A DNA stretch of 30,098 nucleotides from a virus. Position numbers and translations under genes: made by a program. Under the pieces are notes generated by a model. The model was not told the origin of the DNA, did not search any database, and saw nothing but the letters and a program-made list of their open reading frames with translations. Location: positions 1 to 30,098 of the IMG/VR virus record IMGVR_UViG_3300023184_003625; one strand, given 5' to 3'. This document shows positions 144 through 21,529 of the stretch, piece after piece (positions within the stretch are counted from its first letter, which is position 1; each line of letters begins with the position of its first letter).

Positions 144-1613
144 TCAAGCGATTTTCATCCACTCTAGTCGTTCTTGAGTAAAGGGATAGTTGGCTTCTCG
201 ATAAAAAGTTTTACGTTTGGTCAAGTGTCTTTTGGCAAACTTGCAGGTTGAAGTGACGTCCCAAATTTGCACATGATCTTTGTCCTCTGCTTTTCGGATA
301 CCGCGGCCAATCGACTGGATAACCCTAACAAAACTCTTGCCAGGCTCAACGAGCACAAGATTAAAGATTCGCGGAATGTTAATTCCAACCGCTGCCACAC
401 CATAGGTGGCCACGATAATTTTGTCTGTGCTTTCTGCAACTTCATCATATTCATCTTGACGGTCCTTGGCTTTGGTGGCACCAGATACAAACACAGCCCG
501 ATCACCCAGGCGTTCCACTAGAGCATGTCCGGCTGCCACTCGGTCCACAAGCACCAGAGTGTTGCCTGTTTCGTTAACTCGCTTTATGAGTTCGGCCATG
601 GTATCCAGCCGGCCAGACTCTTCCAGCAGGTATTTAAGTTCGGTCTGATACTCTTTATACTCCACGTGATCCACTAACTGCACAATGTTCACGTGACAGT
701 TGGCCAATACGCCTTGTTGTTGTAGTTCATTGGCACTCAAGCGACCAATCACAGGACCAAGGCCGACCAATAGGGCCTGGCTTTCAAACTTTTCTTTGGG
801 TATGGTTCCAGTCAAACCCCAGCGAATTGGCACTTTAGCCATCACTCCAGTCAGCAAAGTTTTCAGTGCATCTGCTTTGGCCATGTGTACTTCGTCTACA
901 ATAACACATACCACACCTTCCAAGAACTCGCCGATGGTCACTTCACCCACGCCCGATTTAGTGTTCTTTAACAGCACATTCAAACTCTGCCAGGTACAAA
1001 TGGTATGCTGACGTCCATATTCTTTTCTGTCGCCAAAATACACACCCACATCCTGTTGCATGTTGACATAGTCTTTTTCTGTTTGTGTGACCAAACTTTT
1101 GTTGGGCACAATCACAATTGATCTACCATATGGTGTAACTGCATTTGACAAGGCCGCTGTCATTATGGTCTTGCCTGCGCCTGTGGCTACTTCTTGTAGG
1201 CACTGCGGATTGGCCAAGAAGTTGTTGACAATCTCTACTTGATAGTCCCGCATGACAATAGGTTCGCCTGCGGCAGGGTGGCCTTTGGGCCACTTCACGT
1301 GTGCAAAACTATCTTCACGCACTTGTTCAAATGCAAAAGTAGTAGAGTAATCTCTCTGATCATCCAGTTCAATATCGTAATCAAACTTCTCAAGTATGGG
1401 TATGATCTCAGGTAGCAAGTTTGTGTAGGTACTGCCACTTAGTTGGAAGTAACTTACTTTGCCATCCCAACGGCCAAGACGAACTGCTGGCAAGTACCGT
1501 GCATATGGTACGTCATATTTGAAAGCCATGGTCAAGGCTCTGCGCACATCTAAGTCTAGTCCTTCTAATCGGATGTTTACTTCGTCTTTAATTTGTATTG
1601 TACATCTTTTCAT
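144..1613 (-). CDS. uvsW: UvsW-like superfamily 2 DNA/RNA helicase
   Basis: This 489-residue protein has a complete set of SF2 helicase motifs: Walker A ATGAGKT at residues 143-149, a DEVH box at 240-243, motif III LTGT at 267-270 and motif VI QSIGRGIRK at 433-441. An N-terminal domain of about 110 residues precedes the helicase core, as in T4 UvsW. In T4, UvsW unwinds R-loops and branched DNA, drives fork regression and helps switch origin-dependent replication to recombination-dependent replication. The ATG at 1613 lies 7 bases after a -10 box, so the mRNA would have almost no leader. The start overlaps the last 26 bases of the upstream oxygenase gene. The family call is firm; the UvsW name rests on length, the N-terminal extension and the T4-like context. 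Confidence 0.93.
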   Translation of the reverse strand: MKRCTIQIKDEVNIRLEGLDLDVRRALTMAFKYDVPYARYLPAVRLGRWDGKVSYFQLSGSTYTNLLPEIIPILEKFDYDIELDDQRDYSTTFAFEQVREDSFAHVKWPKGHPAAGEPIVMRDYQVEIVNNFLANPQCLQEVATGAGKTIMTAALSNAVTPYGRSIVIVPNKSLVTQTEKDYVNMQQDVGVYFGDRKEYGRQHTICTWQSLNVLLKNTKSGVGEVTIGEFLEGVVCVIVDEVHMAKADALKTLLTGVMAKVPIRWGLTGTIPKEKFESQALLVGLGPVIGRLSANELQQQGVLANCHVNIVQLVDHVEYKEYQTELKYLLEESGRLDTMAELIKRVNETGNTLVLVDRVAAGHALVERLGDRAVFVSGATKAKDRQDEYDEVAESTDKIIVATYGVAAVGINIPRIFNLVLVEPGKSFVRVIQSIGRGIRKAEDKDHVQIWDVTSTCKFAKRHLTKRKTFYREANYPFTQERLEWMKIA

Positions 1614-2304
1614 TGTGTTTATTATACAGGGATTGATAAGAATTTACAACCAACTGTTGAAAATCGGTATTATCAAAAGATTGATGTACAATTAAATGCC
1701 ACCGAGGCTGGCTACTGTTGTTAAAAACTGTATGCCTGTTAGAAATGTCTAACCAAAAGGCGCTGCCAACTTCAAAAGGCACTGATCCGTATTTTTCCAT
1801 TACAAATTTACAGCCATCTGGTTGAGTGATTGCGATATTGATTGCTGTCAACATCGATTGATCAGAATCCGAATGTATGCTAATGTATCCACCGGGTTCC
1901 AGTAACATTACTCTTATACGATAAAATGATACTTCTGGCCACTTGGTACAAAAATACTTTACAGTCTGTGGTAGATATTGTTTGGCTTCTGGAGTCCAAA
2001 TATACGGGCGTGAATCATTGTAGTATGCGTTTTCTCTGGTGGCTGTAAAACTTTTACCATGTATACAAAAACTTTTCCATCCTTGATGTTCACTATAATC
2101 ATCTCTATGGGGAACCATTAAAGATTGAATGGATTCAAGTTCTTTTGCAATTTCCCAATGGGGTACATCAATGTTTAAACACAACCATGGTAAACCAGAT
2201 TGGCATTTGATCCAATCAAAATTCGCCTCAGGATTGTAGCCTGGCAATTGGTATTCGGTATTGATGTATTTTTTTAACATCAGTTGACTTATTTTTTGTT
2301 TCAT
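1588..2304 (-). CDS. 2-oxoglutarate/Fe(II) oxygenase, aspartyl/asparaginyl beta-hydroxylase-like
   Basis: The 238-residue protein carries the facial triad and 2OG-binding pattern of the aspartyl/asparaginyl beta-hydroxylase superfamily: HSD (H144, D146), a distal H191 in SNRHTVFNNS, and R201 ten residues later in PRWHLIVH. The segment before the first His (MLLEPGGYISIHSD) is typical of the double-stranded beta-helix core. Such enzymes hydroxylate protein side chains or free amino acids, using oxygen and 2-oxoglutarate. The substrate is unknown. It is the last of three overlapping AT-rich genes; its ATG overlaps the stop of the 381-residue gene by four bases and its end overlaps uvsW. The N-terminal 40 residues are unassigned. 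Confidence 0.82.
   Translation of the reverse strand: MKQKISQLMLKKYINTEYQLPGYNPEANFDWIKCQSGLPWLCLNIDVPHWEIAKELESIQSLMVPHRDDYSEHQGWKSFCIHGKSFTATRENAYYNDSRPYIWTPEAKQYLPQTVKYFCTKWPEVSFYRIRVMLLEPGGYISIHSDSDQSMLTAINIAITQPDGCKFVMEKYGSVPFEVGSAFWLDISNRHTVFNNSSQPRWHLIVHQSFDNTDFQQLVVNSYQSLYNKHNEKMYNTN
1621..1649 (-). promoter_or_regulatory. Sigma-70-type promoter for uvsW
   Basis: On the minus strand a -35 box TTGTAA (1644-1649), a 17-base spacer and a perfect -10 box TATAAT (1621-1626) precede the uvsW ATG by 7 bases. The expected transcript start is at or one base before the ATG, so the message would be leaderless. The promoter lies inside the 3' end of the upstream oxygenase gene and would allow uvsW to be expressed independently of that AT-rich cassette. 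Confidence 0.55.
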
Positions 2305-3446
2305 TTTTTAAGTTTGTCTTGAAAGTTTTTGTACTCGTCAACTGTGGTGTGTAATAATGTCCACTTGTAATTTAATATATTAGAGCACCAGATATAATCG
2401 TACTTATCTATATCATTATTCAATACCCAAGTAATCAAATTATCGTTGTAAAAATGGACAATTTTATTTTGTTTTGCTTGAGCCCAATCTCTTTCAAAAT
2501 GTTCTCCCATTATACTATAAAACTTGTTGTTAACATATTCAACAAAAGTTTTTTTACTTTTAAATTTTAATCGTTCCAATGGTGTTAAGTCCGGTTTGTC
2601 TAGTTCGTAATGACCTAGTTTATTCCGAACAATAAACTCCCAAACAAAGTTTCCGTAGTCAAGTCCATTCCACGTATTCCATAATTCCCTACAAAATTTA
2701 ATTTGTGTCAGACTAATATCGACTATTTGTATTTGTTGCGTGGCTGGTTCTATTATGTTTATCATCCAAAACAATCCTGAACCGGGTGATAATAATCTTT
2801 GTTTCTTGACTACATCAATTGATTCATTGTTGAAAATCCACAATTGATTTTCGGCTATGTTGTTATATTCTTGGAATATATCTAAATTTAGTTTTTTTTT
2901 GTACAAAAAAAACTTTAACTCTCGAGCATGATTATTCCAATTAACCACTGACCGGTAGTTTTGTAACTGTCGAGCAATCAAACCTTGTCCAAATTTTGTA
3001 CTTGAATGTGAGATCAACTGGTCTCCTGGGCTCACCCATAATGGTGTATAGTCGTCGTGTAAATTTTGACTACTACGTATAGGTTTTGGATATGTCACGG
3101 TGTCGCAATCAAAATCTGTTGTGTCAAAATTCTTTATGTTCATAAACCAGCACTGGTCATTGAGATATAAGTCTTGATCCGGATGCCAAATTAAATGTGC
3201 TATTAATCCTTTGTGAGGATAACTGTCAATTAGTGTTTTCCATTTGTCCCAATCTATAATTATAGTGCCACTTTTAACAAACAATGCTTGTGTATAATTG
3301 TTCTCTCTGGCCCACAAAAATCCTGATTTCCAGTTATCGCATATAAAAATTTCCTGCCCTGTACTATTACCAAATTTACCAAATTGTATTCCACTCAAAG
3401 TTTGATTCAAATCATGGCCATTTAAGATTACTACCGGCCAACTCAT
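2301..3446 (-). CDS. Hypothetical protein, 381 aa, AT-rich phage accessory gene
   Basis: I do not recognise a named family. The protein is soluble and rich in W, Y, N and K. Around residues 57-110 it has an alternating strand/helix pattern with LFVKSGTIIIDWDKW and an acidic turn, reminiscent of a Rossmann-like or GT-A-like fold. The C-terminal segment IDKYDYIWCSNILNYKW resembles the motif IV region of a class I methyltransferase, but no glycine-rich SAM motif is visible. Both ideas are weak. The start overlaps the 266-residue gene by ATGA, and the end overlaps the oxygenase by four bases, so the three genes are translationally coupled and may act together. Base composition is much more AT-rich than in uvsW or the AAA ATPase. 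Confidence 0.75.
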   Translation of the reverse strand: MSWPVVILNGHDLNQTLSGIQFGKFGNSTGQEIFICDNWKSGFLWARENNYTQALFVKSGTIIIDWDKWKTLIDSYPHKGLIAHLIWHPDQDLYLNDQCWFMNIKNFDTTDFDCDTVTYPKPIRSSQNLHDDYTPLWVSPGDQLISHSSTKFGQGLIARQLQNYRSVVNWNNHARELKFFLYKKKLNLDIFQEYNNIAENQLWIFNNESIDVVKKQRLLSPGSGLFWMINIIEPATQQIQIVDISLTQIKFCRELWNTWNGLDYGNFVWEFIVRNKLGHYELDKPDLTPLERLKFKSKKTFVEYVNNKFYSIMGEHFERDWAQAKQNKIVHFYNDNLITWVLNNDIDKYDYIWCSNILNYKWTLLHTTVDEYKNFQDKLKK

Positions 3447-4243
3447 AACAGGACTTTTAAAGGTGTTTGATTGTTTTTCAATTGCGATATGATTGCTTCA
3501 AAATTTGGCACTTGCCCAAATATAGTAACTGAAAAAATATCATTTATATCCCATGATGAAATGTTCCAATATTGGCACCATGATTTGCTATGTTGCACCC
3601 ACCAAGATTCAAATTCTTCAATTTCAATATCTTTCAATGTGTCTATATCTTCAAGTGCTATTAGAATCTTAGGTCTGAGTTTTATCCATGGTTTAATCAA
3701 CTCGCGCATACGATTTATGTCATTGGGTTCGCCATTTTTCCAGTAATGATATGGTGTTTTTCCTAACTCTGACCAGTGTACAAACGCATCACCTGCTTTG
3801 ATTTTTGTTGTTGCATTTTCCAACCATTTATAATCAAATGGCCTTTCTAACCTACCAGATTTTTCTCTAAAATCAATTGGCAAAACTTTTGATTTTTGCC
3901 CATATCGACGTTCGCATAGATGAATATGCTCGTGAAAATTTAACCAGTTAGGATCCCCATTATAATTTTTTTCATAAATTTTATGTAGGGCATTAAAATA
4001 ATTTTGATCTTGGGTCAAACAGCGTTCTTGATCAATTTGAATATGCACTTTATCTGCATGTACAATTAACCTTTGAACTAAATCACAGTGGTCCAGATTG
4101 TCTTTGTAAAAAGGATTGTCCCAGTCGCGGAATGGAATTGGTACGTGCTGAAGATGCTTGTATATTTGCTTGTAGACAGCGGTTATCGGGGTTTTGTTAA
4201 GAACTAATTCTACGATTTCGTTATTAGAAAAAACAATTTGCAT
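3443..4243 (-). CDS. Hypothetical protein, 266 aa, paralogue of the gene at 20753-21529
   Basis: No known family is recognised. The protein has a histidine-rich middle (FHEHIHLCERR) and a diagnostic motif LGKTPYHYWKNGEPN near residue 160. The 258-residue protein at 20753-21529 has LGRTSYNKWENGDTN at the equivalent place, along with a matching upstream segment (FNALHKIYEK against LNSLHQRWVK) and a downstream match (IEEFESWWVQHS against PEQYQKWCNTHN). The two are therefore diverged members of one family. This gene leads a three-gene AT-rich operon and starts 15 bases after the terminator of the AAA-ATPase operon. An ATTAAATA box lies four bases before the ATG, with no Shine-Dalgarno. Confidence 0.78.
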   Translation of the reverse strand: MQIVFSNNEIVELVLNKTPITAVYKQIYKHLQHVPIPFRDWDNPFYKDNLDHCDLVQRLIVHADKVHIQIDQERCLTQDQNYFNALHKIYEKNYNGDPNWLNFHEHIHLCERRYGQKSKVLPIDFREKSGRLERPFDYKWLENATTKIKAGDAFVHWSELGKTPYHYWKNGEPNDINRMRELIKPWIKLRPKILIALEDIDTLKDIEIEEFESWWVQHSKSWCQYWNISSWDINDIFSVTIFGQVPNFEAIISQLKNNQTPLKVLL

Positions 4244-10212: not shown

Positions 10213-10892
10213 AGCCCATTCCTGTTTTCATAGGTTATGATCCAAGAGAGGCTGTGGCCTATCATACCTGTGTAAACTCAATCATAAGACATTCGTCTAG
10301 ACCTGTGGCTGTGATTCCCTTGGCGTTGAATCTGTTTGAAGACTACACCGAAACACACACAGATGGGTCAAATCAATTTATCTACAGTAGATTCTTGGTA
10401 CCGCATTTGATGAACTATGTAGGTTGGGCTATTTTCATTGACGGCGACATGATTTTACGCGATGACATAGTCAAACTTTGGGAACTTCAAGAATTAAACA
10501 AAGACGTCATGGTGGTCAAACACAATTATCAAACGCGAATGACTGAAAAATATCTAGGATCAAAAAACGAAAATTATCCAAGAAAAAATTGGTCCAGTGT
10601 GATATTATGGAACTGCAACAGTTTTCCTAACAGACGATTGACACCTGAATTTGTACAAAAATCCACTGGCAGTTTCTTGCATCGTTTTTCTTGGCTTGAA
10701 GATGACAGAATTGGCGAATTGCCACCGGAGTGGAATTGGTTGCCCGACGAGTATGGCGTGAATTTGGATGCCAAACTGTTGCATTACACACTTGGGGCTC
10801 CTTGTTTTCATGAGTTTGCCACAACACCACAAAGTGATGAGTGGCACAGAGAACACATGTTGACAGATTACTGTTTGCAAAGGATGATTTGA
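10209..10892 (+). CDS. GT-A type glycosyltransferase
   Basis: 227 residues. The N-terminal FIGYDPREAVAYHTCVNSII is a typical donor-binding opening of small phage/bacterial GT-A transferases, and the DxD motif is IFIDGDMIL (DGD at 78-80). A downstream WNWLPDEYG and HYTLGAP are consistent with a metal-binding His near the C-terminus. It overlaps the fusion gene by ATGA and the next gene by TGATG. It probably adds a sugar to a glycan chain; the linkage is unknown. Confidence 0.82.
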   Translation: MKPIPVFIGYDPREAVAYHTCVNSIIRHSSRPVAVIPLALNLFEDYTETHTDGSNQFIYSRFLVPHLMNYVGWAIFIDGDMILRDDIVKLWELQELNKDVMVVKHNYQTRMTEKYLGSKNENYPRKNWSSVILWNCNSFPNRRLTPEFVQKSTGSFLHRFSWLEDDRIGELPPEWNWLPDEYGVNLDAKLLHYTLGAPCFHEFATTPQSDEWHREHMLTDYCLQRMI

Positions 10893-11278
10893 TGAATCAA
10901 GACTGGTTGTTCCTGAGCAAAAACAACAAGGATGAGTATATCAACATGCTGGCAGCCAGTGCTGGAATTGAACCAACTGACAGTGACTATTTTGATTTTC
11001 ACTATGACATTGAAGTAGACAAGAAAAAACTTGTGTTGCGTGGTATTCTCAAGCACAAAATCATGCAAAAGTGCTGGCAAGGTGCCCACGATTTTTGGTA
11101 TATAGACTCGGGTTATGCTGGCAACAACGTGTCACCAACCAACCCTCGAGGAATAAAAATCTATCACAGGATAGTAAAAATAATTTACAGCATAAAGAAA
11201 TTCAACAAAGACCTGCTGATCGTTGGTCTAAATTGGGGATTATCTTACAACCTCGACGTCACGGACGAAGAATCATAG
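10892..11278 (+). pseudogene. Capsule-synthesis-like protein, N-terminal fragment (frameshifted gene)
   Basis: The start is the ATG at 10892, overlapping the stop of the glycosyltransferase (TGATG). The sequence is protein-like up to about residue 95 (NPRGIKIYHRIV) and then becomes a meaningless frame ending at 11278. The expected continuation lies in the -1 frame from 11176, so one A appears to be missing in the A5 run at 11176-11180. Adding one A restores a single 270-residue protein, close to the 280 residues of the paralogue at 14997. Either the gene is broken, or the genome or assembly carries a homopolymer error. Its N-terminal part is less similar to its paralogues than its C-terminal half. 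Confidence 0.65.
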
Positions 11279-11703
11279 TGGCAGCACCTGACGAAAAGCC
11301 TTGCAGATTTTATGGCATTGATCAAGCACAATGGATCGACGATACGGTGACCCAAATCAGACAACTCACAGACCGTCCTGTAGAAGTTCGACAACGTTCT
11401 CCCAAACGCATTGATAGAGTTGCCACAGCACCATTGAGCCAAGAACTAGTCAATGATGTACATGCCCTGGTCACATTCAACAGTGTGGCCGCAGTAGAAG
11501 CCATATTCGCAGGAGTTCCTGCGTTTGTACTGGCACCTGTTCATGTGGCAGCACCAGTGGCAAACACCACGTTGGACAGTATTGAAGATCCTGCCTGGGC
11601 CGATCAAGACCTATTAGATGCTTGGTGTCACAGCATGGCCTACGGTCAATATCACGTGAAAGAACTTAGAAATGGCACAGCATTTAGGATGATGCAAGAA
11701 TGA
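11176..11703 (+). pseudogene. Capsule-synthesis-like protein, C-terminal fragment (frameshifted gene)
   Basis: From 11176 the frame reads KNNLQHKEIQQRPADRW and then a segment clearly related to the two paralogues in this island: SKLGIILQPRRHGRRIIVAA against KLGIHLQPWRQGNNIVIAV at 14997; EAIFAGVPAFVLAPVHVAAP against QSIIAGVPAFVGVDSLAAP; and the C-terminal WCHS pattern. The family resembles KpsS/capsule-polysaccharide biosynthesis (Kdo-transferase-like) proteins. The strongly conserved HP after the RPV segment is replaced by QRSP here, so the copy may be degenerate besides the frameshift. The end overlaps the next start by ATGA. Confidence 0.65.
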
Positions 11704-14996: not shown

Positions 14997-15839
14997 ATGA
15001 AAATTAGCCTATTTGATAATTTTGGTGCACTTAACTCTGGACCTGTGTTTGCTGCCTTTGAACAGGGATTACATGCCCTAGGTATTCAATCTAACAATCA
15101 CGATATAGATGCTGACGTGGCGGTGATATGGAGTCAGTTATGGTCTGGACGCATGCGACACAATCAAGAAATTTGGAACGCATTCAGAGACTCTGGACGC
15201 AACGTGATTGTGTTAGAAGTAGGAATGCTACGTCGTGGACACACATGGAAACTGGGACTAAACGGTGTAAATCGACGTGCTTGGTTTGGTTTGGACTATC
15301 AACTCAACAGGGCACAAAAGTTAGGCATACATCTGCAACCGTGGCGCCAGGGCAATAACATTGTGATTGCCGTCCAACGCAGTGACAGTGAACAATGGTC
15401 TGGACTGCCAGAGCCCAAAACATGGGTTGAACAAACTGTTGCAAAAATTCAATCAGTTACTGACAGGCCTATTGTTGTTCGTCCGCACCCCAGACAACGT
15501 ATCACTGGCATAACAGGTGTGACCATACGCCACCCAAGGCCGTTGATCAACACCTATGACAGTTTTGATTTTGATACTGATCTGGCCAATGCCTGGTGTG
15601 TGATCAACGAAAACTCAGGACCGGGTTGTCAAAGCATTATAGCAGGTGTACCTGCATTTGTTGGTGTGGACAGTCTAGCCGCTCCGGTGGCCAATCTGGA
15701 TCTACTGGATATAGAAAAGCCGTGGATGCCAGATCGCACGGCTTGGTTGCAAGATATTGCTCACACAGAATGGACTACAGAAGAGATTGCATCAGGATTG
15801 CCTGTGCAAAGATTATTGTCTAGATTGCAGTCTCACTAG
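14997..15839 (+). CDS. Capsule-polysaccharide-synthesis-like protein, 280 aa
   Basis: The cleanest member of the three-paralogue set. Key blocks are KLGIHLQPWRQGNNIVIAVQ, VTDRPIVVRPHPRQRI, WCVINENSGPGCQSIIAGVP, AFVGVDSLAAPVANLDLLDI and EKPWMPDRTAWLQDIAHTEW. RPHP and the ENSGPG/GVPAFV segment match the nucleotide-sugar-binding half of KpsS-type capsule synthesis proteins. The N-terminal 95 residues, with DADVAVIWSQLW, form a first Rossmann-like half. It is monocistronic on the plus strand and its 3' end overlaps the Gmd gene on the other strand by 27 bases. Confidence 0.75.
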   Translation: MKISLFDNFGALNSGPVFAAFEQGLHALGIQSNNHDIDADVAVIWSQLWSGRMRHNQEIWNAFRDSGRNVIVLEVGMLRRGHTWKLGLNGVNRRAWFGLDYQLNRAQKLGIHLQPWRQGNNIVIAVQRSDSEQWSGLPEPKTWVEQTVAKIQSVTDRPIVVRPHPRQRITGITGVTIRHPRPLINTYDSFDFDTDLANAWCVINENSGPGCQSIIAGVPAFVGVDSLAAPVANLDLLDIEKPWMPDRTAWLQDIAHTEWTTEEIASGLPVQRLLSRLQSH

Positions 15840-16793
15840 GTCAGCGTCGACCATGTCACGTATCATGGTCTCAAAGTTGGTGCGTGGCCGCCAACCCAAC
15901 TGTTCTCTAGCACGAGCACTATCACCACGTAAACTGTATAGTTCAGCAGGACGTTTGAATCGTGGATCACTCTTGACAAGATGTTGCCAATCTTGAATAC
16001 CCACATGTTCAAATGCCACGCGGCACAAGTCACCTATAGTATGCTGTTCGCCAGTGGCAATCACATAGTCACTGGCTCGTTCTTGTTGCAACATCAACCA
16101 CATGGCTTCCACAAAGTCCCCAGCAAAGCCCCAATCACGTGCGGCATCTAAATTGCCCAGAGTGACATCATCTGCTAGTCCCAATTTGATACGTGCAACT
16201 GCGTCTGTGATCTTGCGTGTGACAAACTCACGACCACGCAAGGGCGATTCATGATTGAACAAGATGCCTGAGCAAGCATATAGGCTATAACTTTCACGAA
16301 AGTTAATAGTCATCCAGTGTGAGTACAACTTGCTTACACCATAAGGGCTTCTTGGACGAAACGGTGTGATCTCACTTTGCAAGCCAGGTTCTGTGGCATT
16401 ACCAAACATCTCTGAAGTAGATGCTTGATAGAATCTAGCATTGGGATTGTGTTGGCGTATGGAGTTTAACAAGTTCAACGGGCCCATGCAATTGACTTCG
16501 GTTGTGAGTTTGTTTAATTCCCAACTGATGCCCACAAAACTTTGCGCCGCCAAATTGTAAACTTCTTGTGGCTTGAGGCTTTGCATAATGTGATTCATGT
16601 TGTTCTCATCAGTGATGTCACCTGTGATGAGTTCAATGTCGTTTTCAATACCCAACCATTTGAGATTTTCCAAATTGGGATTTGAATAGCGTTTGACCAA
16701 CCCGTATACATGGTAGTCTTTTTTGAGTAGATATTGGGCAAGATATGGGCCATCTTGGCCGGTCATGCCTGTAACAAATGCTGTCTTTTTCAT
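15813..16793 (-). CDS. gmd: GDP-mannose 4,6-dehydratase
   Basis: 326 residues from the ATG at 16793; a GTG at 16808 is a less likely start. All hallmarks of the extended short-chain dehydrogenase family are present: FVTGMTGQDGPYLAQ (NADP-binding), QASTSEMFG (catalytic T and E), YGVSK (catalytic Y and K), FNHESPLRGREFVTRKI and LGNLDAARDWGFAGDFVEAM, the last two being diagnostic for Gmd. The enzyme converts GDP-mannose to GDP-4-keto-6-deoxymannose, the precursor of fucose, rhamnose, perosamine and related sugars. No fucose synthase or aminotransferase is in this window, so the following step must be elsewhere or host-supplied. Length is slightly below typical bacterial Gmd (about 340-370). Confidence 0.96.
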   Translation of the reverse strand: MKKTAFVTGMTGQDGPYLAQYLLKKDYHVYGLVKRYSNPNLENLKWLGIENDIELITGDITDENNMNHIMQSLKPQEVYNLAAQSFVGISWELNKLTTEVNCMGPLNLLNSIRQHNPNARFYQASTSEMFGNATEPGLQSEITPFRPRSPYGVSKLYSHWMTINFRESYSLYACSGILFNHESPLRGREFVTRKITDAVARIKLGLADDVTLGNLDAARDWGFAGDFVEAMWLMLQQERASDYVIATGEQHTIGDLCRVAFEHVGIQDWQHLVKSDPRFKRPAELYSLRGDSARAREQLGWRPRTNFETMIRDMVDADLVRLQSRQ

Positions 16794-16818
16794 GCTATTA
16801 TGTATCACATATGATGGA

Positions 16819-17277
16819 TTACACCTGAATATCTTCCATGCCTGCTGTTCTCAGTCGCACCACATGTCCTGACATCCAGGATTTGGAGTCTAGACCTTTC
16901 ATGACTCCCAGCCAACGATTGCGTAAGTATGCCACTTCGTTAATTATGGTTTCATAATCAATCACTTCATCCTCGCCGTCTACATACTTTTCAGCATCTC
17001 TTGAAGTAAGAGCACGAGCATAATTTTCGAGATATTTTTGAAAGTGTTTTCTGCGTATTTTTCTCAATTGTATGTTGAGATAGTTTAGAACTGCTTCAAT
17101 CTCTTGCAGTTGATTGAAACGATGTTCGGTAATGCCGGGCAGGGCAGTGATGTTTTTTTCTACTATGCCCGAAATTTTACAATCTCGTTTGGCATCTTCG
17201 AGTTCACGCTCATAGTGACTGATAAAATCAGGAACAGCACCAAGACTGGCAACTACGCGACTATACCACATGATCAA
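16819..17277 (-). CDS. Conserved T4-like phage helical protein, 152 aa
   Basis: The protein is mostly helical and highly charged: CKISGIVEKNITALPGITEH, a helix with EIEAVLNYLNIQLRKIRRKH, then SRDAEKYVDGEDEVIDYETI and RNRWLGVMKGLDSKSW. It resembles a conserved hypothetical protein I associate with marine T4-like phages; this is recall, not a search. A recombination-mediator (UvsY-type) role is conceivable because uvsX, uvsW and gp32 are nearby, but the classical UvsY sequence pattern is absent, so I do not name it. Its ATG overlaps the C-terminal radical-SAM fragment by four bases. Confidence 0.75.
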   Translation of the reverse strand: MIMWYSRVVASLGAVPDFISHYERELEDAKRDCKISGIVEKNITALPGITEHRFNQLQEIEAVLNYLNIQLRKIRRKHFQKYLENYARALTSRDAEKYVDGEDEVIDYETIINEVAYLRNRWLGVMKGLDSKSWMSGHVVRLRTAGMEDIQV

Positions 17278-18218
17278 TATTCATATCTATAAACAAAAGA
17301 TTTAATCTTTTCAAGCATTTCTCCTATTTGATTATTGTCGTTTAAATTTTGCCAGTTCATCGCTTCCGTCAGTTGATCTTTAATATACCATTTCCAGTAA
17401 GGAGCCTGAAACTTAATATTCAGTTGACTATTCATAAAAAATCCTGGTCGGCTGATTGGTAACTTCACATTATTTTCTTTATATTCAAGTTGATTATAAT
17501 AATAATTTGAATTTTTTAAAATATCAATATCATCAATTTTAATACTATTAAACAAAATGCGCTTGTCTGCTACTATGTGTCCTTGTTTATCAACTTGGGT
17601 ATCATTTGCATTTTTGTTATCCATACCTATTTCAATTTGAGATTGATCAACAAAATTGTACTTGATTTCAACATTTACTGTAGAGTTACCTTCTGGCAAT
17701 TCACTGCGATACAATGTTTCTCCATTGTATTTTATAAACAATTGGGGGCCACCAAAGCAATGTCCTGAATCAACTTCTAATACTACTTTGGTACTAGGAA
17801 ATAATTCTTGCGTTCTTTTATCAATGTAGTCCTGCCAATTTTCTAATAGAGCAATAGATGGACAAGCATCATAGTTGTTTTGGTCTACATTATTAAGTAT
17901 GAAATCTCGACCTTTTTCAAATGACTCATTAAGTCTTGTTTGCATATAAATTACTTGCTGTCGCTGAGAATAAACTGGCAATCCTAAATAGTATCCAAGT
18001 CTGTATATGATGTACCATCTCGCTATTCGGGCTTTTATTGTTAAATTTGGGTTTATAGGGGTATACCAAAAAAAAGAAAAATTATCATCGCTTGTGATTA
18101 ATTTATTTTTTTCTGTGTTATCTGTGGCGGGTGTGTTACGTAAAGTTGCATAACCTTGACCAAGGTCAACAGCAGTAACAGTACGGTTGGCAATAAAAGG
18201 TCCTAGTTTAAGTATCAT
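17274..18218 (-). pseudogene. Radical-SAM protein, C-terminal fragment with carbohydrate-binding-like domain
   Basis: The ATG at 18218 is probably an internal codon rather than a start. Reading the same frame upstream gives SEEFSDFLLHLDMILKLGPF, a natural continuation of the radical-SAM protein at 18215-19441. One missing base near 18252-18259 explains the split. After the rest of the TIM-barrel-associated part comes a helical stretch with LTIKARIARWYIIYRLGYYL. About residues 146-240 form a beta-sandwich-like region, with GPQLFIKYNGETLYRSEL, VEIKYNFVDQSQIEIGMDN and NDTQVDKQGHIVADKRILF, resembling calcium-dependent xylan-binding-type modules. The gene is strongly AT-rich. It could be translated as a separate product by ATGA re-initiation. 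Confidence 0.65.
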
Positions 18219-19441
18219 ATCAAGATGTAGAAGAAAATCTGAAAACTCTTCAGACAGTGTCCTACAATATTGTTTATAATGGCACCAATTCCGACATCGC
18301 GCATGTGATTTAATTCATAAAATAATCCATCTACTGTGGTTTTTTTGTCCATTGCTTTTAATACTTTATCGCTTCCCGATTCTGCTCCTATAGTCACATG
18401 ATTAAACCCGGCTTTGATCATTAAATTAAAAAATTCAGGCTTGATTGAATTAGGAGGTCTTGAGATCCAATTCCCAGAAATTTTAATTTTGTTGTCTGTC
18501 AGAGAATCATTATATTTTGCAATTTCTATCAAACATTCACTGAGTGCTTTCATGTTACCATTAGCAATCGAATCTGATAGCACAAATTCATTTCTATTAT
18601 ATTTTTGGCTTAGATAAATTATTTCTTCTGCCAGTCGTGTGCCATTTTTACTTTGGAATTTACTAAAATTTGAAGACACATCACAAAAATCACAAGACCT
18701 TACGCAACCTTTACTGCTGATTACTGGTATCATTAATCTAGAGGCAATGCCTTTGTAATTATCAAAATCATAATCATCAAAGTTACTGAATGGATATGAC
18801 AAAGTTATATTCGAAGTAGTGTTCCAAAAATCTGGAGAATACAATTTACCATTCAAGAATTCTAAAAGACTGTCCTCAGCATCACCTAGTATTGTATGAT
18901 ATACTAGTTTTTTCTTCATTATGATCTCATGAAATTGCATTAATTTTTCAATTTTGGTTAGTTTACTCCAAAAATTAATGTAAGGGCCTGTGGTAAGTCC
19001 CTTACCACCCAATACAATTTTCCAATTTGGATACCGTTCTTTAACACGATTGCAAAATTCCCAAGTTGCAATATGTGTCCATACACTGAACACACTGATA
19101 CCAATGAACTTTGTTGAATATTGTGCAAGCCAATCAATTATATAATCATAAATTTGCTTAACATGATTGTGTAATTCTTGTGAATGTGGGCCTTCGGCTA
19201 TCCAGTAGTTTTGTAAATCTTGATATTTTTCAGACTTAGACTCACAAAAAATTTTGTGTATATCAACATTGAAATCATGAGTAAGAACTTTAAATCCGTG
19301 ACTTTGTGCTATTCCTTTTAGGATAGCCGGAGCGGTAGGCGGCACCATTAAATCCGACGCTGGCAAGTTGATCAAAATCATATCATAATCATAACTATCT
19401 CCGGTTTTATCTATTTCATAATTTTCTAATGTTAACTCCAT
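18215..19441 (-). pseudogene. B12-binding-domain-type radical SAM protein, N-terminal fragment (frameshifted)
   Basis: 408 residues before the frame ends. Residues 20-150 resemble a cobalamin-binding-like Rossmann domain (DMILINLPASDLMVPPTAPA, FIGISVFSVW, IVLGGKG), but I do not see the DxHxxG cobalamin motif. The radical SAM cluster motif is CVRSCDFC (C246, C250, C253), followed by ISGNWISRPPN and TIGAESGSDKVL. The end NNIVGHCLKSFQ then turns to nonsense, whereas the -1 frame carries on with SEEFSDF; restoring one base gives a single protein of 722 residues. Radical SAM enzymes of this class do methyl transfer or other difficult chemistry. The start overlaps the acidic gene stop by one base (TAATG). 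Confidence 0.75.
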
Positions 19442-19698
19442 TAGTTTTCCCAGTCTTCGTCTTCTTCGTCTTCTTCGTCTTCTTCGTCTTCAGTCTCATA
19501 GTCCTTGTCATTGTCAAGGTAGGCTGTCAGCGCACGTTTGATGTCTGAGTCGCCCTTGAAGGCGTCACGAATGTCTTCAACATCCGAATCATTGTCCATC
19601 AAGATCTGTATCACAGTTTCTGCGGCTTCAGCACGGTCCACTGTGTTTATAAAACGCTTGAGTTCTCCCCAAATTTCACTTGCTATCGCTTCACTCAT
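19441..19698 (-). CDS. Small acidic protein next to uvsX
   Basis: 85 residues. The first 60 are helical (SEAIASEIWGELKRFINTVD) with a DNDSDVEDIRDAFKGDSDI segment; the tail is almost purely D and E, encoded by a GAAGACGAA-type repeat at 19453-19491. Small acidic proteins with the same design sit beside uvsX in other T4-like marine phages, as far as I recall. The acidic tail may mimic DNA or contact a basic partner such as UvsX; this is inference. The ATG overlaps the uvsX 3' end by eight bases, so the two are translated together. Confidence 0.75.
   Translation of the reverse strand: MSEAIASEIWGELKRFINTVDRAEAAETVIQILMDNDSDVEDIRDAFKGDSDIKRALTAYLDNDKDYETEDEEDEEDEEDEDWEN
19453..19491 (-). repeat. 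In-frame GAAGACGAA repeat encoding an acidic tail
   Basis: About four copies of a 9-base unit (GAAGACGAA on the minus strand) within the acidic gene, giving the pattern DEEDEEDEEDED. Such repeats can change copy number by slippage without breaking the frame. Confidence 0.8.
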
Positions 19699-20749
19699 CT
19701 GCTGTTTCCTCCGGAGTACTTACCTCTTCTTTGCGTTTTCCAAACTCAGACATCACAACGTCTAGCACACCGCCTTCGTTTGATTCCCAAGCCTTGCGGA
19801 AATGTTTGAGGATTTCGCCATCCAGTGTAGTATAGGCCAGTCGGTTGCCGTCTTTTTTCAAGAAACCTTTTTTCTCAGCCAAGTCCACGAGACCCGAATA
19901 AGGATTCATACCTGTTTCGTAGGGAATCTTTACCTGCACACCTTCGAAGGGTTTGGCATAGCGTGTTTTCATGACCTTGCAGGCCGAGCGAATTCCCATG
20001 ACATCTGACACTTTGTTGCCGTCCTCGTCCTCTTTGAGTTTGAGTTTTTTCATGGCAACAACTATCGAACTAGCATAAATGAAACCTTGACCACCGCTGA
20101 TCTTATCGTCAGGGTCGAACATATCCTGACTTGCGTAGGTGTGGTTGGTACATACTAGGCCAACGTTATAACTACCAAACATGTTTACACAGTTACGCAC
20201 CAAGGCTGTAAGTGCCTTGGGTTTACGTCCTAGATCGCCCTTCATTTCTCCAGCATCAAACTGGTTGACGTCTGTGGGGGTGAGCAACATGCCTAACGAA
20301 TCAATCACAAACAACACTTTAGGACGTTCGCCATCTGCTAGAGTTTTGTAGTCACTCATGAATGTGCTTATGGTCTTAGCCACATCGTCAATCATGGCCA
20401 TACTCAACTTCAAAAGTTTAGATTCAGAAGTATCAACGCCAAGTGCTTTTAGCCAATCTTCATCAAGTGCGTTCTCTGAGTCAATTAGAACTACAAAGAT
20501 ACCTTGCTCTTGTGCGTTCTTGATAATGTTACCACTACAGATATATGACTTTCCTGCACCGGATTCACCAGCGAACACAGTGACCTTGCCTAGTGGGATG
20601 CCACGGTTGAAGTCTCCTGAGATCAAATAGTTCAAGGCATAATTGCCTGTGCTGATCCAATCTGTAGGATCGTTGAAGCCGATTGACAATCCGTCAATGC
20701 TCTTGGTAATTTCCTTGCGGAATTTGCTCACGTCAAATGGTTTTCCCAT
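19691..20749 (-). CDS. uvsX: UvsX, RecA-like recombinase
   Basis: 352 residues with the RecA/UvsX core: Walker A FAGESGAGKSY (61-68 for the loop), Walker B in KVLFVIDSLGM, and a DNA-binding loop region around GGQGFIYASS. T4 UvsX (about 390 residues) forms filaments on single-stranded DNA and drives strand exchange in recombination-dependent replication, assisted by gp32 and UvsY. The N-terminal segment STGNYALNYLISGDFNRGIP is typical. TTGGAG lies seven bases before the ATG, inside the end of the upstream gene, providing a ribosome binding site. The acidic protein gene follows with an eight-base overlap. GC content is normal for the phage core, unlike its AT-rich upstream neighbour. Confidence 0.95.
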   Translation of the reverse strand: MGKPFDVSKFRKEITKSIDGLSIGFNDPTDWISTGNYALNYLISGDFNRGIPLGKVTVFAGESGAGKSYICSGNIIKNAQEQGIFVVLIDSENALDEDWLKALGVDTSESKLLKLSMAMIDDVAKTISTFMSDYKTLADGERPKVLFVIDSLGMLLTPTDVNQFDAGEMKGDLGRKPKALTALVRNCVNMFGSYNVGLVCTNHTYASQDMFDPDDKISGGQGFIYASSIVVAMKKLKLKEDEDGNKVSDVMGIRSACKVMKTRYAKPFEGVQVKIPYETGMNPYSGLVDLAEKKGFLKKDGNRLAYTTLDGEILKHFRKAWESNEGGVLDVVMSEFGKRKEEVSTPEETADE

Positions 20750-20752
20750 GTG

Positions 20753-21529
20753 TTACTCCAATGTAAAAAAATTATTTTCTATAAGTGAATTCTTATAGAA
20801 CAGTTGCCTATATCGAGATAGATTGTCATCTAGTTTGTTAAAGTTTGCCAAAGGCATTTCTTTGCCTACACACGGTATGTTGTGTGTATTGCACCATTTT
20901 TGATATTGTTCAGGTAGTGTTTGTTGGAATGATGGTACTACTCTCAATCTTAATGTTGTGCTCAATTCGGAAAAATTATTTAGATCAAAGTCTTGGTTAG
21001 TATCGCCGTTTTCCCACTTGTTATAACTTGTTCTGCCTAAGTTTTGAAATGCTACTGACAAATTAAATATTCCGTTTTTAAGTATATTTGTTCCAAAATG
21101 ATTGGGAATCATTTCATTGGCATTTGATGATTTAGCATCAATCATATGTGTCAACCCTTCTATACTATGAATTAATACATTTATCCTGTCAAGGGCGCCC
21201 GGAATTTTTGTGTCAAAAATTTTTTTAATGTATGGAAATTCTTTATGTAGTTTTACCCAACGTTGGTGTAGAGAGTTCAAATTTTCTTGTTTACTAGGAT
21301 CAAGTTCAAATTCCAAAATTGAATATTTGAACTTATCTTTCAAGAGTTTTTGTACCTGAGAAAATTTAGTTTCTAGTTCTTGACTTAATTGCTTATATCC
21401 CAAATCGGGCATATTATAATGATTAATATCACGTTGATTTAATTGTTCAACAAAATAATCATATACCCTGCTATCAATTGGATTAAGTTCAATCATGTCA
21501 CCTGTGCTTATCCAAACCAATCTTGACAT
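20753..21529 (-). CDS. Hypothetical protein, 258 aa, paralogue of the gene at 3443-4243
   Basis: No known family is recognised. LGRTSYNKWENGDTN and PEQYQKWCNTHNIP place it with the 266-residue protein at 3443-4243. The middle contains DRINVLIHSIEGLTHMI and NHFGTNILKNGIF. It is strongly AT-rich against uvsX and gp32, and is inserted between them: it starts a few bases after the gp32 terminator and ends three bases before uvsX. The ATG at 21529 follows an AT-rich TTTTAATAT with no Shine-Dalgarno. It has no signal peptide or membrane segment. A moron-like insertion is inferred from composition and position. Confidence 0.75.
   Translation of the reverse strand: MSRLVWISTGDMIELNPIDSRVYDYFVEQLNQRDINHYNMPDLGYKQLSQELETKFSQVQKLLKDKFKYSILEFELDPSKQENLNSLHQRWVKLHKEFPYIKKIFDTKIPGALDRINVLIHSIEGLTHMIDAKSSNANEMIPNHFGTNILKNGIFNLSVAFQNLGRTSYNKWENGDTNQDFDLNNFSELSTTLRLRVVPSFQQTLPEQYQKWCNTHNIPCVGKEMPLANFNKLDDNLSRYRQLFYKNSLIENNFFTLE

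Follow-up and report, generated by a model that had tools for sequence, protein, structure and literature searches.

Two neighbouring reading frames on the minus strand of a phage genome raise the question of whether they are separate genes or the broken halves of one, and of what their product might do. The window, meaning the whole stretch of DNA analysed here, is a virus record of 30,098 bases with T4-like genes, identified by sequence reading, for a helicase, a clamp loader, UvsX, a single-strand binding protein and a terminase. A sequence-only reading of this DNA had proposed that a radical SAM gene in it is split by a single base near 18252–18259, and that the rejoined protein ends in a beta-sandwich resembling calcium-dependent carbohydrate-binding modules.

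One gene interrupted by a frame break

The N-terminal piece (18215–19441, minus strand, 408 aa), assigned from PF04055, NCBIfam profiles and its match to the intact relative L002, holds a Rossmann/B12-like domain and most of the radical SAM core with its CxxxCxxC motif in SKGCVRSCDFCDV, and terminates in ...NNIVGHCLKSFQIFFYILI. The C-terminal piece (17274–18218, minus strand, 314 aa), also placed by its match to L002, supplies the end of the core, a helical region and a CBM60-like beta-sandwich; upstream of the break its frame reads ...TLSEEFSDFLLHLDMILKLGPF. L002 is one 714-aa ORF, of which residues 1–396 are 68% identical to the first piece and residues 401–714 are 67% identical to the second. 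With intact relatives as the reference, a one-base frame break lies right behind the Gly-His codons (18249–18260, minus strand), and the frame switches at 18257/18254 (about 18257–18254), inside the radical SAM core. The second tblastn segment obtained with intact relatives begins at 18254 in at least 19 of the 20 listed cases, and the first stops at 18257 or over-extends a few codons beyond it. All 20 complete relatives in IMG/VR, a set that includes some near-duplicates, are uninterrupted single ORFs of about 690–735 aa and colinear with both pieces (additional loci are fragments ended by contig ends); none of these 20 shares the break, which is confined to this record. The two ORFs are pieces of a single gene, and the one-base split and its position stand as first proposed.

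The frame break itself is ordinary. Differences from L002 at the three codon positions are 0.25/0.14/0.45 in the first half and 0.24/0.16/0.41 in the second; since both halves retain a coding-type substitution pattern, the break is either of recent origin or an artefact. A glycosyltransferase-like gene at 10841–11703 (plus strand) is likewise divided between two frames, with a break at about 11,100–11,200, and an intact version of it occurs at L025:6532–7338 (268 aa). The radical SAM break is likely an assembly error or a fresh mutation and not a split enzyme, and because the record contains another broken gene, an assembly error is likelier than a real mutation. Programmed frameshifting was also considered: the sequence around the break showed no slippery heptamer and hence no sign of such a mechanism, and with every complete relative uninterrupted this candidate was rejected.

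It might still be argued that this phage makes a truly split enzyme from the two ORFs, linked through the ATGA stop-start overlap at 18218–18215, because the ATG that opens the second ORF overlaps the stop of the first and because distant relatives encode the C-terminal domain as a separate overlapping gene. However, L002 also has that ATG, as a Met codon in the interior of its ORF, the complete relatives are whole in 20 of 20 cases, and the record contains another broken gene. The break also lies within the catalytic barrel, away from the natural junction between domains near residue 535. We consider a true split enzyme extremely improbable and reject it on the position of the break within the catalytic core.

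Predicted enzyme class and C-terminal fold

Pfam and an AlphaFold2 model bear out the proposed order of a Rossmann/B12-like domain, a CxxxCxxC radical SAM core, a helical region and a beta-sandwich, and the protein is predicted to be a divergent cobalamin-type (B12-type) radical SAM enzyme. The N-terminal piece matches the radical SAM family PF04055 (E 5.4e-14, 53.1 bits against a cut-off of 29.5), and the cysteines of the motif (C237, C241 and C244 in L002 numbering) are invariant in eight aligned relatives. The B12-binding family PF02310 matches below its cut-off (E 4e-4). No conserved DxHxxG motif was seen in the alignment of relatives; this motif is absent from many enzymes of the cobalamin-dependent (class B type) radical SAM class. 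The whole-protein AlphaFold2 model of L002 has a mean pLDDT of 79.5, with the cluster-binding stretch 232–255 poorly modelled, and a Foldseek search of the PDB with it returns TsrM (6.8e-11), OxsB (5.9e-9), AprD4 (9.7e-9) and MgmA (1.0e-8), as well as 2xhh and 2xfd. By fold match to TsrM, OxsB and MgmA, an N-terminal Rossmann domain of the B12-binding type is present. In NCBIfam, the responding profiles belong mostly to B12-radical SAM families, and none of the profiles comes close to its own cut-off. TIGR03975 (RiPP maturation C-methyltransferase) is the best of them for the window and several relatives, and ApyD is also high; the TIGR03975 scores of 64–106 bits (64.3 for the window piece, 71.6 for L002) fall short of the curated cut-off of 281.85. 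The phage enzyme is predicted to use cobalamin.

The C-terminal domain (17367–17810, minus strand) is delimited by AlphaFold2, Foldseek and conservation of the motif NKx(3)DTxV[DN]x(2)GxIx(2)DK. The structure prediction recommended in the sequence-only reading, made for the window's own domain together with 11 relatives, has a pLDDT of 93.7, and its best PDB matches are both CBM60 entries: 2xhh (TMt 0.61) and 2xfd (TMt 0.69), each at probability 1.00 and with modest E-values (2.7e-3 and 6.9e-3). The remaining high-ranking PDB matches have far lower TM-scores, so that the suggested likeness to calcium-dependent carbohydrate-binding modules is good as to fold, with these two the nearest solved structures. 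Among viral models, separate proteins of 144–158 aa from uncultured Caudovirales phages match the domain at TM 0.67–0.79. The motif is largely preserved in fused and separate forms, and, in window-domain numbering, N29, K66, D70, G77, I79, D82 and K83 do not vary across 15 aligned members. Ten members matched no Pfam CBM family even at E 10, searches of PHROGs and Pfam gave chance-level matches only, and a sequence search of the PDB found none. The fold is consistent with a domain that would bind calcium and have a glycan as its ligand, and the conserved acidic motif could also serve a non-sugar ligand.

Pairing and fusion of the enzyme with the domain

Outside the fused family, the domain was traced by means of a DNA pattern that describes its conserved motif. 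In L042/L047, L052 and L055 a B12-type radical SAM gene of about 470–485 aa is followed by a separate gene for the domain that overlaps its end. A scan with the separate-type radical SAM enzyme, using three query enzymes that were themselves picked for pairing, located 80 loci, several of them near-duplicates. A CBM60-like ORF of 129–194 aa overlaps the radical SAM stop in 24 of these loci (enzyme length 447–535 aa), two loci (L091/L092) contain an additional fusion of 666 aa, and the other 54, mostly with more distant enzymes, have no such partner. The loci without a match were also checked for a diverged partner downstream of the radical SAM gene, and none was found. Because the 80 loci were located through the enzyme and not the domain, the adjacency is not an effect of the search.

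The sequence-only reading had named homologues consistently ending at the break, together with an independently occurring C-terminal gene, as evidence against it. No homologue ends there. Distant phages do, however, carry the C-terminal domain as a gene of its own, and in all 24 separate cases from the scan that started with the enzyme this gene overlaps the end of a radical SAM gene, which strengthens the functional link instead of breaking it. A 39-row tree places the window within the main fused clade (100/99) as the sister of L002, with L091 fused separately, and requires the fused label to change separately at least twice. The domain was joined to a radical SAM enzyme at least twice. Overlapping genes and two fusions imply that the two parts work together, and suggest that the enzyme and the CBM60-like domain are a working pair. 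Several radical SAM relatives are without the C-terminal domain, so it is not needed by all of them.

Other arrangements were observed among these loci. The second fusion, at 2992–4992 of L091/L092, is an independent combination of a B12-type radical SAM enzyme with a CBM60-like domain and lies on contigs of 236 kb and 75 kb. In L090:2992–7111, radical SAM genes and CBM60-like ORFs occur in tandem, two of each. At L038:5163–6429, a separate ORF of the CBM60-like type, truncated by the end of the locus, sits behind a gene that by eye is aminotransferase-like, and no radical SAM gene was seen within the available stretch. Partnerless related B12-type radical SAM genes lie directly upstream of a replicative-helicase-like gene in L073, L074, L077, L079 and L080.

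The search against phage proteins advised in the sequence-only reading had a divided outcome. Annotated phages yielded no homologue apart from Streptomyces phage SF3, which matches the core at 20%, and IMG/VR supplied the 20 complete relatives. Two scans of cellular genomes with strict peptide patterns found none, a result compatible with the existence of distant cellular relatives. The combination of enzyme and domain has so far been encountered in uncultured phages alone; Pfam, PHROGs and the annotated phage genomes miss it. What seems to be new here is that distant phages encode the domain in a gene of its own, which overlaps the stop of a B12-type radical SAM gene, and that the domain was fused at least twice.

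Genomic setting, proposed function and relation to known systems

The gene is flanked by a UvsY-like recombination mediator (16819–17277, minus strand, phrog_231 E 1e-12) and, on the other side, by a small acidic conserved ORF with a DEEDEEDEED tail (19441–19698, minus strand, cluster C2 in 16 loci), for which no family match was found. Next to the latter is a UvsX/RecA-like recombinase recognized by sequence reading (19691–20749, minus strand, cluster C1 in 20 loci). The GC content of the radical SAM gene is 32–33% as against 41–46% in its neighbours, and the gene stands before uvsY in the window and L002 and after it in L003 and L005. It looks like cargo within a recombination-gene neighbourhood. 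Further low-GC ORFs without family match at 2301–4243 and 20753–21529 (31–33% GC, measured for 2301–3446 and 20753–21529) are perhaps cargo of the same kind. An aspartyl/asparaginyl beta-hydroxylase-like gene occupies 1588–2304 (minus strand, PF05118 E 8e-11). Different radical SAM-like genes, judged by eye, lie a few genes upstream in L002 (3–770 and 1303–2448) and also in L008, L027 and L031 (cluster C13). The glycan island previously described beside the gene is real: it includes a GDP-mannose 4,6-dehydratase (15813–16808, minus strand, PF16363 E 1.5e-121), and GT8, GT17, methyltransferase and nucleotidyltransferase-cupin genes are interleaved with the T4-like genes.

The simplest reading of a carbohydrate-module fold with glycan genes nearby is that the enzyme recruits a glycan, which it then alters through radical chemistry. 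In the mechanism we propose, a 4Fe-4S cluster on CxxxCxxC would split SAM to give a 5′-deoxyadenosyl radical, and the N-terminal Rossmann domain would hold cobalamin. Radical and cobalamin together would then bring about C-methylation of the substrate, with deoxygenation or rearrangement less likely. The CBM60-like domain, fused or as a separate partner, would hold the substrate, which would most likely be a host-surface or virion glycan made by the adjacent glycosyltransferase genes. In our preferred reading the domain would bring in the substrate, probably a glycan; methylation is the reaction we would expect. Overall, we see an even chance that this single gene, broken by a one-base change, codes for a cobalamin-type radical SAM enzyme that carries its own recognition domain and acts on a probable glycan.

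Two other readings of the enzyme were weighed. It may be a peptide-modifying radical SAM enzyme (a RiPP-type C-methyltransferase or similar) whose beta-sandwich is a protein-recognition domain and not a sugar-binding one. The top rank of TIGR03975 among NCBIfam profiles for the window and for several relatives, the high ApyD score and the conserved small acidic ORF close by in 16 loci fit such an enzyme, but TIGR03975 scores far under its curated cut-off, clustering did not recover the small ORF beside the radical SAM gene of L033, and the C-domain fold is best matched by CBM60; we think this reading unlikely. Also improbable, to a similar degree, is an enzyme of this fold that deoxygenates or epimerises a sugar without cobalamin. 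AprD4, a radical SAM enzyme of the B12 fold, is not known to use cobalamin, and its structure with bound substrate paromamine is a strong fold match; the B12-binding Pfam score below cut-off points the same way. However, TsrM, OxsB and MgmA match equally well or better, and methyltransferase families are prominent among the NCBIfam matches.

Returning to the glycan-modifying reading, we tentatively suggest, while doubting that every part will hold, that these phages possess a class of B12-type radical SAM catalysts with a dedicated CBM60-like recognition subunit, supplied as an overlapping pair or a fusion, for the radical modification (e.g., C-methylation) of an assembled host-surface or virion glycan. 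If true, this would tie B12-type radical chemistry to a carbohydrate-binding-like module in a concrete and testable way. In a superfamily whose substrates are usually unknown, repeated pairing and fusion would offer a lead on the substrate class, and the pairing may help explain radical SAM cassettes in the host-recognition islands of aquatic T4-like phages.

Such cassettes are described in the host-recognition islands of pelagimyophages, whose GT8/rfaE and O-chain-type glycosyltransferases are thought to alter host surface O-chains against co-infection (PMC7029224). The resemblance to the window is that these T4-like aquatic phages combine radical SAM genes with rfaE and glycosyltransferases of the LPS type; unlike the window, the cassettes, in the passages that describe them, include no B12-type enzyme and no CBM-like partner (PMC7029224). 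TsrM, a tryptophan 2-C-methyltransferase (PDB 6wte/6wtf) that is a cobalamin-binding radical SAM methyltransferase, is the best fold match to the phage enzyme (E 6.8e-11, sequence profile E 0.0025), and in both a Rossmann B12-like domain precedes the radical SAM core. The two are 14–15% identical, the TIGR04428 score is far under cut-off, and the CBM60-like domain would be an addition of the phage enzyme not expected in TsrM. The B12-fold radical SAM enzymes OxsB, AprD4 and MgmA have the N-terminal and core layout in common with the phage enzyme at 12–15% identity, and their C-terminal parts presumably differ. CBM60 itself (vCBM60, PDB 2xfd and 2xhh), a Ca-dependent carbohydrate-binding module, shares the beta-sandwich fold of the phage C-terminal domain (TMt 0.61–0.69, rmsd about 4) at 8–10% identity and with no Pfam match; in contrast to CBM60, the phage domain carries the NK..DT..D..G.I..DK motif and is linked to a radical SAM enzyme.
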